From Candidatus Geocrenenecus huangii (lineage in GTDB: Archaea; Thermoproteota; Nitrososphaeria_A; Caldarchaeales; Wolframiiraptoraceae), in NCBI GenBank assembly GCA_023268155.1, contig JALNKM010000002.1, positions 124,001-188,000 on the forward strand: 64,000 nucleotides of DNA, in the 5' to 3' direction. The position numbers and the translations under genes were made by a program. The notes under the pieces were generated by a model. It saw only the letters and a program-made list of their open reading frames with translations. It had not been told where the DNA came from and ran no database searches. Each line of letters begins with the position of its first letter. Within the stretch, counting starts at the first letter, position 1. Positions 39,950 to 45,579 of this stretch are shown piece after piece.

Positions 39950-40900
39950 TTGAAGCTCTCGGTTAGAGGCATATATTCTACAGCTTTAATCAAGCTATTG
40001 ATAGACAAGGGATTTAAGATTGTGAAACCTACGAGATCTCAGATAGAGAGGTTCGGGTTAACAAACCTGGCTGTAGAACCCGAGGCAGTTATTTCAGATT
40101 CATCTGATAGACACTTTATAGAGATAAGAGGGGTCTTGGAGGTTGTCAACCCTCTAGTAGTCGAATTGAAAAACTTCTTCGAAGACTTGATCGTCATTTG
40201 GAGAATGAAGGATGCAAATAATTCATGGGTTAGAGTAGGTTTTCCAGTTGATGCTAAGAAGAAGCTTGATGAGCTGAGATCTATGATAGCTTATACCGTT
40301 CCATGGCATCACTACTGTAGAGCAGGGGGAGAAGCGATCTCAAATATGGTTAGTTTTGCTGAAGACTTAGTTGAGAAGGGACTTGTACCTCCTGAAGAAA
40401 TGAGCAGGATGTTTGAAGAACAAGTCAACCAGTTTACTCCAAGACTTAAGTCTAGAATAAGAATAGTCCACGTAAAACTTAATGGTAAAAGAATACTACT
40501 TGGACCTGGTAAAGTTATCTGGAGAAGTGATGAGACTATTAAAATCCTTAGGAGAATCATGAGCTCGGGAGTATACGATGGTTTAGGTATACAGAAGCAA
40601 GTTGGAGATTATGCTGTTACAGAGGCCAGGAAGCTAGATGTGTGGACCAAGACAAGCTATTATAGTTTATCTGGAAATTTTAAAGGCGCCTACTATAACA
40701 TCTCTACACCCATCGCATTCTATCCTGACCATATACATTACTTCGACCTCGATGTAGACGTAGTTTACCTCCCCAATCTTGAAGTTAAAATAATCGATAC
40801 AGAACTTCTTGAGCAAGCACTTAACCAAGAAATAATAAGCGGCAAGCTCTTCGAGAAAGCGTTAAAAACAGCCGATAGGATATGTTGTGAAAAACCTTAA
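39950..40900 (+). CDS. FAU-1-like RNA-binding protein / putative ribonuclease, short form
   Basis: The 316-residue protein starts at TTG with VRGIYSTALIKLLIDKGFKIVKPT, the N-terminal signature of the FAU-1 family (AU-rich RNA binding, RNase E/G-related), and has the TVPWHHYCRAGGEAI motif like the family TVPGHH segment plus a DUF402-like C-terminal part. Pyrococcus FAU-1 is about 470 residues, so the S1-like inserted region seems absent here. A DUF402 role in nucleotide diphosphate hydrolysis is another possibility. It is followed by a convergent ECF-type membrane protein gene. Confidence 0.68.
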   Translation: MKLSVRGIYSTALIKLLIDKGFKIVKPTRSQIERFGLTNLAVEPEAVISDSSDRHFIEIRGVLEVVNPLVVELKNFFEDLIVIWRMKDANNSWVRVGFPVDAKKKLDELRSMIAYTVPWHHYCRAGGEAISNMVSFAEDLVEKGLVPPEEMSRMFEEQVNQFTPRLKSRIRIVHVKLNGKRILLGPGKVIWRSDETIKILRRIMSSGVYDGLGIQKQVGDYAVTEARKLDVWTKTSYYSLSGNFKGAYYNISTPIAFYPDHIHYFDLDVDVVYLPNLEVKIIDTELLEQALNQEIISGKLFEKALKTADRICCEKP

Positions 40901-41595
40901 TCTTTCTTCTGCTTCACTAATGCTATTATCCATGGTTCTCTAAGACTTAGGAACAAGCCTTGTTTACTGAAGTTCTTTACAAGTATTATTGATGGAAACA
41001 GGCTTAACGCTACGTGTAATGTATTGTAGATAGCGGTGAAGAATAGGATTATTAGTAAACCTCCTATTCCAGTTTCTACCTCCACGCCTAGAGCTAGAGA
41101 TAGGAATTTTACAGCATATTCTAGAAAGAAGGGCATTGTTACTGCTAGAAGCACGTAGTTAGAGATGGATGTTGCTATAATCCTCATTAAGCTACTGAAT
41201 AAGAATACCGTAAGCCATGATGCTATAAATCTTGATTTTAGCTTACAGCATATCCATAAACCAGCCAGCATAGAAGCTACTGCAATAAATTTCATAGCTG
41301 GGCCTATGGGAGCCCATTCTCCAAATATATTGAGGATCAGCCAATAAGTTAATGCAGAGATAAATCCTGGAAAAGGTCCAAAACCTAAGAAAGCTGTTAC
41401 CACAGGTATCTCAGCTATATCGAATTTTAGGTAAGGTATTAATGGGAAAGAGAAACTTAAAGGCATCATTGCAAGAACGGCTGACAATGCTCCAAAGACT
41501 GTTGATATAGCAACTAGTAGAGAAATTCTCGACTCGAGGTGTCTTGGCATATATATAACCGGTTTTCTGGAATACTTAACCCTAAGTAAATACAA
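40897..41595 (-). CDS. RibU-like ECF transporter S component (paralogue 1)
   Basis: The 232-residue protein has about six spans and the RibU-type stretch PYLKFDIAEIPVVTAFLGFGP, in which D and P are typical of riboflavin-binding S components. A start at Met16 (MPRHLESRISLL) would remove a basic leader and fits the family better. No EcfA or EcfT genes lie in the window, so it must use an unlinked energising module or work alone. It overlaps the FAU-1-like gene by 4 bases at their convergent ends. Confidence 0.72.
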   Translation of the reverse strand: MYLLRVKYSRKPVIYMPRHLESRISLLVAISTVFGALSAVLAMMPLSFSFPLIPYLKFDIAEIPVVTAFLGFGPFPGFISALTYWLILNIFGEWAPIGPAMKFIAVASMLAGLWICCKLKSRFIASWLTVFLFSSLMRIIATSISNYVLLAVTMPFFLEYAVKFLSLALGVEVETGIGGLLIILFFTAIYNTLHVALSLFPSIILVKNFSKQGLFLSLREPWIIALVKQKKD

Positions 41596-41623: not shown

Positions 41624-42460
41624 TTACGGTAGGATGCCGTTAAAAAAATCTTTCACAGCTTTCTCGTAGTCTGATTGATCTCCAACATCTATCCAGTAGC
41701 CATTATGGAGATATGCATATAGTTTATTCTGGTCTGCAAGTTCTGGGAATACATCTTCTTCAAGTGAGGAGGGTCTGTCAGATGGTATATAATCAAATAT
41801 AGCAGGTTCAAATACATAGATGCCTGCATTAACGAATCCTGGAACAGGTTGTCTAGGTTTCTCTCTAAATGCTATAACTCTCCCTTCTTCATCTATTGAA
41901 ACCAAGCCGAATCTTCTTGCATCTTCAACCCTCGTTAAAACAATTGTCGCAATACTATTCTTTTCTCTATGATATTTAATTAAACTCGGTATGTCTAATC
42001 CAGTAAATATTACGTCTCCATTAACTGTTAGAAAGGTAGTATTCAATTTCTTTTCAGCGTTCTTCACTGCTCCTGCTGTTCCGAGAGGAAACTTCTCTAT
42101 AGAATAATCGATCGACAAACCCATATGTCTACCATCTCCAAAATATTTTATTAAATGCTCGCCGAGATATCCTATTGCTAAAATGAAGTTGTAGATCCCT
42201 TGCTTCTTCATGTACATTATAATATGTTCAAGTAAAGGCTTGTATCCTATAGGTATCATTGATTTAGGTATACTATAAGTGAGGGGGGTTAAACCTGTTC
42301 CTCTACCCCCACACAGAATTAAACATTTTAATGATTCTCTCATCAACCTTTCTCGTACTGCTTCAATAATGAATGAACTCCTCTTTCTGGCAGGCACATA
42401 TCTCTTTAACGCATCCCATAACTCTACTGGAAACTCTATGCTAGTACGGTGCTTACTCAT
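41624..42460 (-). CDS. Sugar-phosphate nucleotidyltransferase fused to a ribbon-helix-helix domain
   Basis: Residues 1-42 (HRTSIEFPVELWDALKRYV then RSSFIIEAVRERLM) read as a complete ribbon-helix-helix DNA-binding motif. From residue 45 on, the protein is a NTP_transferase domain: CLILCGGRGTGLTPLTYSIPKSM, VNGDVIF (Mg-binding Asp), FREKP, NAGIYVFEP. The pyrophosphorylase loop has G-x-G-T-G where R is usual (GTRLxPLT), so catalysis could be altered. The nucleotide sugar could be GDP-mannose or similar. A TATA box (42486-42494) about 30 bases before the ATG implies that translation starts at the RHH domain, so the fusion is real. Confidence 0.8.
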   Translation of the reverse strand: MSKHRTSIEFPVELWDALKRYVPARKRSSFIIEAVRERLMRESLKCLILCGGRGTGLTPLTYSIPKSMIPIGYKPLLEHIIMYMKKQGIYNFILAIGYLGEHLIKYFGDGRHMGLSIDYSIEKFPLGTAGAVKNAEKKLNTTFLTVNGDVIFTGLDIPSLIKYHREKNSIATIVLTRVEDARRFGLVSIDEEGRVIAFREKPRQPVPGFVNAGIYVFEPAIFDYIPSDRPSSLEEDVFPELADQNKLYAYLHNGYWIDVGDQSDYEKAVKDFFNGILP

Positions 42461-42485
42461 ACATATTGGAGAATGAAGATGTACA

Positions 42486-42494
42486 TTATAAATT
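42486..42494 (-). promoter_or_regulatory. TATA box of the RHH-nucleotidyltransferase gene
   Basis: On the minus strand AATTTATAA is centred about 30 bases before the ATG at 42460, so the mRNA should start at or near that ATG and include the ribbon-helix-helix part. Confidence 0.5.
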
Positions 42495-42559
42495 TATGTA
42501 CTAAGAAACTTAAATAGAGATACAACATAATATATAAAACTTGTTTATGCATAAAACTA

Positions 42560-42568
42560 AAAATATAG
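42560..42568 (+). promoter_or_regulatory. TATA box of the gap-pgk operon
   Basis: AAAATATAG is centred about 26 bases before the gap ATG at 42590. It lies close to the divergent nucleotidyltransferase promoter, so both genes could share regulation. Confidence 0.45.
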
Positions 42569-42589
42569 CTTCACGATAATTAAATTGAG

Positions 42590-43612
42590 ATGGTTCTGAG
42601 AGTTGGAGTTAACGGAATGGGTAGAATTGGTAGATTGTTCCTACGAGCTGCATTAGAAGATCCAAGATATGGAAAGATGTTTGAAGTCGTAGCTTTCAAC
42701 GAATTAGCAGATACGAAGACTACAGCTCTACTTCTTAAGTACGACTCAATACACCGCAGACTCAATAAAGATATCTCATATACCAATAAAAGCATAACAG
42801 TAGATGGGAAAGAGATGATAGCGTACAGTGTTAAGGATCCTTCTCAGATACCCTGGAATGAAGTCGGAGTAGAAGTGGTTGTTGAGGCAACTGGACAATT
42901 CACTTCGAAGAGTGATGCTTCAAAACATATTAGAGATACTGTTAAGAAAGTCTTGGTTACAGCACCATGCAAAGATGCGGATGTAACAATAGTGCCTGGA
43001 GTTAATGACCACGTACTAGACTTGTCTAAACATAATGTTATCTCTGCAGCATCATGTACAACTAACTGTCTCGCACCCATGGTTAAAGTACTCTTAGACA
43101 ATTTCGGCATAAAGAAAGGATTCATGATAACAGTACACGCTTATACGAACGACCAGAGAGTTCTAGACCTAGTGCATAAAGACCTGAGAAGAGCTAGAGC
43201 CGCAGCTTTATCCATAATACCTACGACTACTGGAGCAGCTTCTGCACTCCACTTAGTAATCCCTGAAGTAAAAGGAAAAATGGATGGAATAGCTCTTAGA
43301 GTACCTGTACCGGATGGTTCAGTTACAGACTTAACAGCCGTCCTCGAAAGAGAGACAACAGTAGATGAAGTTAGAAAGGCATACAAGACAGCGGCCGAGG
43401 GTAAGATGAAGAAGATAATGGAGTATACAGAAGACCCGATCGTTTCAGCCGACATAATAGGTAACCCGCACTCATGCATTATTGACGGATTAAGTATAAT
43501 GACTATCGGAGAGAGGAGTGACATAGTAAAGGTTCTCGGCTGGTACGACAATGAGTGGGGATACAGCTGCAGACTCGTCGATATAGTGAACATGATTGCG
43601 GAGAAGCTTTGA
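42590..43612 (+). CDS. gap: Bacterial-type glyceraldehyde-3-phosphate dehydrogenase
   Basis: The 340-residue enzyme is of the classical bacterial/eukaryotic class I type (GVNGMGRIGRLFLRA, then SAASCTTNCLAPM with nucleophile Cys156, HAYTNDQ with general-base His, and WYDNEWGYSCRLVD near the end). Most archaea use a distinct class II enzyme, which begins with a VAINGYGTIGKRV-like Rossmann stretch. It converts glyceraldehyde 3-phosphate to 1,3-bisphosphoglycerate. The residue after the second strand is FNEL, not the usual IND, so cofactor preference (NAD or NADP) is uncertain. It lies 50 bases before pgk on the same strand. Confidence 0.92.
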   Translation: MVLRVGVNGMGRIGRLFLRAALEDPRYGKMFEVVAFNELADTKTTALLLKYDSIHRRLNKDISYTNKSITVDGKEMIAYSVKDPSQIPWNEVGVEVVVEATGQFTSKSDASKHIRDTVKKVLVTAPCKDADVTIVPGVNDHVLDLSKHNVISAASCTTNCLAPMVKVLLDNFGIKKGFMITVHAYTNDQRVLDLVHKDLRRARAAALSIIPTTTGAASALHLVIPEVKGKMDGIALRVPVPDGSVTDLTAVLERETTVDEVRKAYKTAAEGKMKKIMEYTEDPIVSADIIGNPHSCIIDGLSIMTIGERSDIVKVLGWYDNEWGYSCRLVDIVNMIAEKL

Positions 43613-43662: not shown

Positions 43663-44886
43663 ATGTGGTTTAGAACGTTGGACGATGTAGTCGTGTCGGG
43701 AAAGACTGTAATAGTAAGAGTTGACCTAAACTCGCCCATAGATCCAGAAACTGGAAAAATTAGAGATAATGAAAGACTTAGAGCTCACGCTGAGACGATC
43801 AAGGAGCTATCTGAAAAAAATGGGAAAGTCGTCCTCCTCGCACACCAAGGAAGAAAAGGGGACCCAGACTTTCTCCCACTCAAAGACCACGCAGAAATAT
43901 TATCGAAACATGTGGGCAGACATGTTAAATATGTGTCAGACCTTGTAGGTGAAGAAGCAGTAAAATCGGTAAAATCATTGAAGAATGGGGAGATACTACT
44001 TCTCGAGAATGTTAGGATCCTGGATGAAGAAACCAAAGAAGCTTCTCCTGAGGAACATTCTAGAGGAAAGCTAGTATCTACTCTTGCACCTCTAGCTGAC
44101 TTATTTGTTCTAGATGCTTTCTCCGTAGCTCATAGAGCCCACGCATCAGTTGTAGGTTTCTCCCATCTACTACCAACGGTAGCTGGGAGAGTAATGGAGA
44201 AAGAACTTAGAGCTATAACTACTGTTCTAGAAGAAGATAGGAAGATAATGCTGGTTATGGGCGGGAACAAACCCGAAGAATGTATTGAAGTCATTGATGC
44301 AGTAATGTCTAAAAACATTGAGAAGATAAGCCACGTCTTGTCTGCAGGAATACTTGGACAATTGTTCTTGATGACTGAGGGAGTGAACCTAGGAGAAACA
44401 TCTGAATCTTATATTAAGAAGAAGAAATTCGATACATATATAGAACGTTTAACCAAGATACATGAAAGACTTGGAGATAAGTTGAAGAAGCCGATAGATG
44501 TAGCATATGAACAAGATGGTAGAAGAGTGGAGATAGATGTGGAGAAGCTTCCCGCATCTGGAACAATATATGATATAGGTGAAAAAACAGCTAAGAAATA
44601 TGCTGAAATTATCTTGAATACATCCCGAGAGGATGCAATAATAGTTAAAGGTCCAGCTGGAGCATATGAGAAAGAAGAATTCAGAAAAGGAACAGAAAAG
44701 ATATATCAAGCGTTAGCAAAATGTAAAGCGTTTACATTGATTGGCGGAGGAGATTCATCAACAGCCATAGAACTAGTCGGTTTAAGCCCAGCAAACTTTT
44801 CCTACGTAAGCCTTGGAGGAGGAGCCCTCATCACATACATCTCGAAGAAAACCCTCCCAGGAGTAGAAATACTAAAGAAGAAATAA
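43663..44886 (+). CDS. pgk: Archaeal-type phosphoglycerate kinase
   Basis: The 407-residue protein has IVRVDLNSPIDPETGKIRD (substrate binding) and LLAHQGRKGDPDF, the archaeal variant of the usual LxSHLGRP. C-terminal IGGGDSSTAIE (nucleotide binding) is intact. It exchanges phosphate between 1,3-bisphosphoglycerate and ADP. Paired with a bacterial-type gap, the two neighbouring genes appear to have different evolutionary origins. Confidence 0.93.
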   Translation: MWFRTLDDVVVSGKTVIVRVDLNSPIDPETGKIRDNERLRAHAETIKELSEKNGKVVLLAHQGRKGDPDFLPLKDHAEILSKHVGRHVKYVSDLVGEEAVKSVKSLKNGEILLLENVRILDEETKEASPEEHSRGKLVSTLAPLADLFVLDAFSVAHRAHASVVGFSHLLPTVAGRVMEKELRAITTVLEEDRKIMLVMGGNKPEECIEVIDAVMSKNIEKISHVLSAGILGQLFLMTEGVNLGETSESYIKKKKFDTYIERLTKIHERLGDKLKKPIDVAYEQDGRRVEIDVEKLPASGTIYDIGEKTAKKYAEIILNTSREDAIIVKGPAGAYEKEEFRKGTEKIYQALAKCKAFTLIGGGDSSTAIELVGLSPANFSYVSLGGGALITYISKKTLPGVEILKKK

Positions 44887-44961: not shown

Positions 44962-45579
44962 TTACCTTTTTATCTTTTTGTAGAGAGTGTATATAGATGT
45001 TGCCGGGAGGAGCGATAGTGGAACGTGGAGTAGATTGAATAAAGCTGTAAAGACTACTGTTACCACTCCAACTAGAAGAGTCGATTCAAGTTCTATTCCT
45101 AAAATATTTTTCAATACTTGTGTAGAGGTGGGAAGATAGATTTCGGGGAAGATCACGTAATATAAGAGAAAAGTCGCTAGAGACATTAATCCTATTCTTA
45201 TGAGGCTTCCAGAAATAATCATGTATCCAAGGATTCTCTTATTTAGGGTTAGGTTAGGCTTGCTGAAGATTATCTTGAAACCTATCAGCATCGAGATTAC
45301 TGCAATCAACTTCATTAATGGACCTATGATTGCGTGAAACGGCCTACCAAAATTTAATGTTATCCAGTGAATTACAGCTACAGTAAAACCCGACTTGAAG
45401 TCAAAGGCCAACAATGCGAGGACTGCGGGTATTTCTGCAAGATCGAAGCTAAGGAAGGGGAGAAGAGGATATGGAAATCTGAGACGGAGGAGGGACATGA
45501 GTATTGCTGTTGAAGCTAGAAGAGAAGTTCCAGCAATCCATTTACTAACTCTAACCTGTACAGTCTGCATCGATGTCAA
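44962..45579 (-). CDS. RibU-like ECF transporter S component (paralogue 2)
   Basis: The 205-residue protein has five or six spans and the segment LPFLSFDLAEIPAVLALLAFD, matching paralogue 1 at 40897-41595 (PYLKFDIAEIPVVTAFLGFG) and RibU-type riboflavin S components. The two paralogues flank the nucleotidyltransferase-gap-pgk block in the same direction. No ECF energising genes are nearby. Confidence 0.7.
   Translation of the reverse strand: MTSMQTVQVRVSKWIAGTSLLASTAILMSLLRLRFPYPLLPFLSFDLAEIPAVLALLAFDFKSGFTVAVIHWITLNFGRPFHAIIGPLMKLIAVISMLIGFKIIFSKPNLTLNKRILGYMIISGSLIRIGLMSLATFLLYYVIFPEIYLPTSTQVLKNILGIELESTLLVGVVTVVFTALFNLLHVPLSLLPATSIYTLYKKIKR

Follow-up and report, generated by a model that had tools for sequence, protein, structure and literature searches.

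A ribbon-helix-helix domain fused to a nucleotidyltransferase fold in Candidatus Geocrenenecus: a candidate autoregulated one-component regulator with relatives in Patescibacteria and Asgard archaea

What does a protein do that carries a ribbon-helix-helix (RHH) DNA-binding domain on a sugar-nucleotide enzyme fold, and does it read a metabolite or make one? The gene that raises this question lies in what is here called the window, a stretch of 64,000 nt from contig JALNKM010000002.1 (positions 124,001-188,000, forward strand) of the hot-spring archaeon Candidatus Geocrenenecus huangii. A preliminary description of the locus had given the reading frame, strand and coordinates, which proved right when checked. 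The gene and its surroundings comprise the following features:

41624-42460, minus strand: RHH-nucleotidyltransferase fusion gene, an open reading frame of 278 amino acids with its ATG at 42460
42332-42460, minus strand: RHH DNA-binding domain, residues 1-43 (orthologues, NikR profile match, AlphaFold2 helices)
41624-42331, minus strand: NTP_transferase domain, residues 44-278, of the GMPP/HddC/RmlA fold (PF00483, NF052502, PDB matches, column counts)
42482-42500, minus strand: candidate operator, dyad TACAT-AAATTTATA-ATGTA (orthologue comparison, exact-pattern scans)
42486-42492, minus strand: TATA box TTTATAA within the dyad spacer (from the sequence)
40897-41595, minus strand: gene for a RibU-like ECF transporter substrate-binding (S) subunit, 28 bp downstream of the regulator and co-directional
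42590-43612, plus strand: gap (glyceraldehyde-3-phosphate dehydrogenase), divergent from the regulator
43663-44886, plus strand: pgk (phosphoglycerate kinase), following gap

The identity of the larger domain agrees with the preliminary description, as PF00483 (NTP_transferase) spans residues 46-271 of the window protein (E=1.5e-47), and the Pfam scan returned PF00483/PF12804 only. The best NCBIfam profile is that of mannose-1-phosphate guanylyltransferase (NF052502; 219 bits, E=6.6e-65), whose curated cut-off of 440 bits the window protein does not reach, and GDP-mannose pyrophosphorylases (GMPP; PDB 8x7s / 7x8j) are among its best solved relatives. A fold search with the window protein likewise returned matches to the enzyme domain alone. 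Profile search of each half, which the preliminary description had proposed, was less direct for the RHH segment: Pfam RHH_1/RHH_4 stay below threshold on single sequences, and the window RHH alone reaches E=0.067 against RHH_4 (residues 1-45), a weak match for which independent support is required.

Several lines of evidence provide it. The full-length fusion occurs in 16 genomes of the window's archaeal family (Candidatus Geocrenenecus and relatives; named records place the protein in Candidatus Geocrenenecus / Aigarchaeota), and all 16 orthologues are conserved from residue 1, with an identity of 61-90% for the fifteen others. A start near residue 45, which according to the preliminary description would speak against an RHH at residues 1-42, was found among unfused paralogues only. 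The stretches KHRTSIEFP...LW..L and RKR/RRR...FI..A are near-invariant across the 16 orthologues, the strand shows no variation at positions predicted to face DNA, and the nonsynonymous/synonymous ratio is 0.244 in the RHH part vs 0.215 in the adjoining enzyme part. In an AlphaFold2 monomer model of the whole window protein (mean pLDDT 92.5), the strand segment KHRTSIEF is followed by helices at residues 12-21 and 24-43, and the residues before 12 are extended and unpaired, while the RHH segment folded separately from its single sequence gave a moderate pLDDT of 79.7. A profile built from 18 fused RHH segments matched the E. coli NikR RHH (1q5v), the closest solved RHH by profile, over 42/44 positions (E=5.6e-5); since these segments are for the most part bacterial, the match lends more weight to the family than to the window sequence on its own. 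Judged by this sequence and model evidence, the RHH part of the window protein is real and translated, and the preliminary reading of an RHH fused to a sugar-nucleotide enzyme fold is borne out, probably in the role of a regulator.

Whether the enzyme fold still works as an enzyme is the next question. One explanation is that the protein remains an active pyrophosphorylase for a GDP-sugar or another NDP-sugar and that its RHH serves autogenous repression, a moonlighting arrangement like that of trifunctional PutA. Much of the active site fits this explanation: K66, D149, E200 and K201 are each missing from at most one of the 50 fused proteins and D258 from none, the catalytic Lys, the two metal Asp and EKP hardly vary if at all, and the window protein keeps K66 (the Lys of PK), D149 and D258 (the metal Asp pair), E200-K201-P202 and W256. 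Its E122-K-F-P-L-G-T-A-G-A segment is the counterpart of the guanine-recognition motif EXXPLGTGGA of HddC (PMC6981941), and retention of this E122-xx-PLGTAGA base motif, a further point for an active enzyme, suggests a guanine nucleotide as the likely ligand.

The nucleotide-binding loop argues the other way. GxGxR is the canonical nucleotide-binding signature of the nucleotidyltransferase fold (PMC6981941), yet the window loop reads GRGTGL, with Gly56 in place of the catalytic arginine, and this signature (here GRGTG) is absent from the window protein. The change from GTR to GTG, to which the preliminary description had drawn attention, extends to 16/16 family orthologues, all with Gly at this position. 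Loss of the arginine is shared by most fused proteins and is no one-off: the residue is present in 54/55 unfused relatives vs 9/50 fused proteins (Fisher test, 4e-19, a value that overstates the difference because the rows are related). Mapped on the tree, the arginine underwent at least five changes but offers only 1-2 independent pairs, so the comparison is phylogenetically clustered; a tree-based test of independent loss was dropped because these pairs were too few. Six of the nine fused proteins that keep the arginine have an otherwise normal loop, a further point in favor of an active enzyme, and three have an otherwise degenerate one; GxGxR persists in, e.g., L161, L181 and L182, and most of the Asgard fusions read keep the arginine (GARL). 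Loops such as GGKPVFFESEKKS in the Doudnabacteria fusions, on the other hand, are degenerate and again speak against catalysis. Because several fused members keep the arginine, loss of catalysis would be common but not universal. Weighing these points, we regard an active pyrophosphorylase as an unlikely account of the window protein, and favor a mostly non-catalytic nucleotidyltransferase domain that acts as a sensor.

The preliminary description had also suggested a search for other proteins with both domains, and these were found well beyond the window's family. Counting matches that reach the profile's first residues and have an open frame of ~275-325 amino acids, the same architecture is present in three Thermoproteota genomes outside the window's family, in 18/119 from Asgard archaea and in 34/287 sampled from the tiny-genome Patescibacteria. 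At the threshold applied, none was recovered from 146 Micrarchaeota or 151 Chloroflexota genomes; the Chloroflexota zero is the weaker one, as that search had no internal positive control. The enzyme-domain tree places the 19 Thermoproteota fusions in one supported group and the 30 Patescibacteria fusions in another, and it neither demonstrates nor rejects that the fusion arose only once (AU p=0.195). The literature searched, which lacks most subscription journals, yielded no description of an RHH-nucleotidyltransferase fusion, and the family appears not to have been described previously.

For DNA binding by the RHH, the preliminary description had pointed to the intergenic region 42461-42589. 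A candidate operator is indeed present there. The TATA box, which spans -32 to -26 relative to the ATG and so lies close to the ~30 bases noted in the preliminary description, would fit a leaderless transcript with the RHH part included, and it sits in the spacer of an inverted repeat. This dyad, with the core CAT-N9-ATG(T) at -35 to -44 from the start codon and the TATA box in its spacer, recurs in 13/16 orthologues (11 by a stricter pattern, plus L003 and L007 by core match); the three without a clear dyad include two with a rearranged promoter region (L002, L014). The exact pattern for most genera, RCATANNNNTTATATGTR, has 10 matches in 22 genomes. Eight are at the fusion gene's promoter, a ninth is at a copy of this promoter that has been displaced and lies beside gap (G005), and the tenth is elsewhere. 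The Geocrenenecus version, CATANANTTATAATGTAC, has four matches in five Geocrenenecus genomes, all at the fusion gene's promoter. In these exact-pattern scans the dyad is almost confined to its own promoter. The looser dyad TRCATN9ATGYA shows no genome-wide excess (17 vs 16 in the control), and a broad regulon based on it is not claimed. This near-confinement is what single-site autoregulation predicts, and gives no regulon.

In G005 (contig C80, L261, ~3.2-12.2 kb), the promoter and first ~9 codons of the regulator gene are split off by an insertion of ~9 kb, beyond which lies what looks like the complete gene. Both flanks of the insertion carry ~23 bp from the gene start, as if the regulator gene had been the target site of an integrating element. 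In the G. arthurdayi relative (L031, 4129-5365), Rieske-like and GalT-like proteins are encoded between gap and the regulator, and the promoter dyad is absent.

The bacterial branch offers a different candidate site. Within the 150 bases that precede the fusion genes of Patescibacteria, no hexamer is more enriched than GTATGA, with 31 occurrences where the remainder of the loci predicts 2.2; GTATGA is present at 20/34 loci, at a density of 6.1/kb vs 0.37/kb upstream of genes in control loci. The E. coli NikR half-site is GTATGA, and the RHH strands of the Patescibacteria fusions follow the R-x-T-x-T pattern of NikR. A candidate site of this branch, from a Doudnabacteria member, is GTATGATATTATCATAC. 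Inverted repeats upstream of individual Patescibacteria genes were too varied to define one dyad, and the hexamer count was used instead. At L191, L201, L208 and L189, the upstream GTATGA copies are direct repeats spaced by exactly 10 bases, about one helical turn. The archaeal dyad and GTATGATA partly overlap ordinary promoter sequence (BRE/TATA in the case of the dyad), and both therefore remain candidates.

These sites also bear on the explanation that the RHH is a dimerization module only, in an enzyme or scaffold that has no DNA target. The RHH fold is an obligate dimer, which together with the weak Pfam scores would suit such a role, but the invariance of the strand positions expected to face DNA, the promoter-specific dyad and the GTATGA enrichment in the bacterial branch all speak against it, and we consider this explanation very improbable.

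Which genes a DNA-binding fusion protein would control is addressed by its neighborhood. The regulator and the ECF S-component, which matches the riboflavin uptake protein 3p5n (phmmer, E=8.6e-10), probably form an operon. Gene order is largely conserved in the family (serS, DUF402, ECF S-component, regulator, and divergent gap and pgk), and the divergence from gap-pgk reported in the preliminary description is seen in the window, with gap kept divergent in most family genomes; genus g4 has pgk-gap with no regulator adjoining. Two paralogous ECF-type S-components flank gap-pgk in the window, both on the minus strand; nearly all relatives retain the one adjoining the regulator, and some retain the other (44962-45579). 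A DUF402 protein with a ~200-residue N-terminal extension (39950-40900, plus strand) adjoins serS in nearly all relatives.

Linkage to central carbon metabolism extends to other lineages. In G081 and G067, gap, pgk and the fusion gene follow one another in the same orientation, and arrangements in Patescibacteria include fusion-gap, fusion-pgk-gap, gap-pgk-aldolase-PfkB-fusion, fusion-GlpX, fusion-transketolase and phosphoglucomutase-fusion, so that gap, pgk, fba, fbp, tkt, pgm and pfkB stand in operon-like order with the fusion. Central-carbon genes lie near 12/34 fused loci vs 0/20 unfused nucleotidyltransferase loci of the same phylum (Fisher 0.002), a count in which no locus is scored through its own seed, GHMP kinases are left out and phosphatases of the inositol-phosphatase family are included; some of the 12 loci are closely related to each other. 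GHMP-kinase neighbors were dropped from the argument, as 5/20 control loci have them too. At the Asgard fusions examined, no central-carbon neighbors were found, gap/pgk included.

The protein's main task might accordingly be seen as control of gap-pgk in response to a sugar nucleotide, a reading that overlaps with autoregulation and draws on the adjacency of gap/pgk in Caldarchaeales, G081/G067 and several Patescibacteria as well as on the excess over control loci. Yet the window dyad lies on the regulator's TATA box and not demonstrably on that of gap, exact-pattern scans gave no further operator copies, and most Patescibacteria fused loci have no gap/pgk within 5 kb; as the main task, it is possible but rather doubtful. 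The suggestion in the preliminary description that the regulator could control gap-pgk thus stands in part: recurrence of the linkage in unrelated lineages keeps such control plausible from gene context, and the position of the single dyad does not extend it to the gap promoter. As the candidate operator overlies the regulator's own TATA box and no second one was found, the nearer inference is that the protein regulates the operon to which it belongs.

Known systems offer partial parallels. Trifunctional PutA (RHH-PRODH-P5CDH) carries an N-terminal RHH on a metabolic enzyme and is an autogenous repressor (PMC5293562). The two share an N-terminal RHH joined to a metabolic enzyme fold, but the fold of PutA is a different and fully catalytic one, whereas the fusion family usually lacks the signature catalytic residue, and PRODH and P5CDH domains are absent from the window protein by Pfam scan. 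NadR, BirA and RbkR are one-component regulators that combine a DNA-binding domain with a cofactor enzyme domain as sensor; unlike the fusion, they use HTH rather than RHH domains, and other enzymes. NikR resembles the bacterial branch in its strand pattern (QR/ERxTITL) and in the enriched hexamer, but the fusion has no nickel-binding domain and a nucleotidyltransferase fold in the place of the sensor, and in the window's branch both the strand (RTSIEF) and the dyad are different. HddC, RmlA and GMPP share the domain fold and most active-site residues, and differ in having no RHH and an intact GxGxR. GMPPA, a non-catalytic paralogue of GDP-mannose pyrophosphorylase, is a GDP-mannose-binding regulator (PMC11228364); it is a precedent for a nucleotidyltransferase fold as regulator, and GMPPs are among the best PDB matches of the window protein, but the target of GMPPA is an enzyme partner, and GMPPA carries no DNA-binding domain. 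Most likely, by analogy, the fusion follows the principle of PutA or NadR, with an enzyme fold as sensor for a DNA-binding domain, and is a member of neither family.

The fusion, its conservation, the loss in the loop, the promoter-specific dyad and the operon and glycolytic neighborhoods are established at the level of sequence, and from them we infer that the window protein is probably an autoregulated one-component regulator. The RHH domains of a dimer would bind the ~19-bp dyad on the regulator's own TATA box and, by blocking TBP/TFB, repress the operon of regulator and ECF S-component, and perhaps the divergent gap-pgk as well. The nucleotidyltransferase-like domain, which has lost the pyrophosphorylase arginine and presumably catalysis while keeping metal- and substrate-binding residues, would sense a nucleotide or sugar nucleotide, with a guanine nucleotide or a GDP-sugar as the likeliest ligand, and ligand binding would change the spacing of the RHH pair or its affinity for DNA.

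Very little is known of how Patescibacteria and Caldarchaeales regulate their central carbon metabolism. We tentatively propose, as a conceivable if by no means settled wider reading, that the fusions of Patescibacteria, Asgard archaea and Thermoproteota make up a hitherto undescribed family of one-component regulators that spans bacteria and archaea. In its members, a pseudo-nucleotidyltransferase that reads sugar-nucleotide levels would be coupled to an RHH dimer, and the protein would control glycolytic/gluconeogenic or sugar-phosphate genes together with its own gene. The CAT-N9-ATG dyad of the archaeal family and the GTATGA repeats of the bacterial branch provide testable candidate operators. 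If this is true, a decayed sugar-nucleotide enzyme would serve as a sensor that ties glycan-precursor supply to glycolysis/gluconeogenesis.
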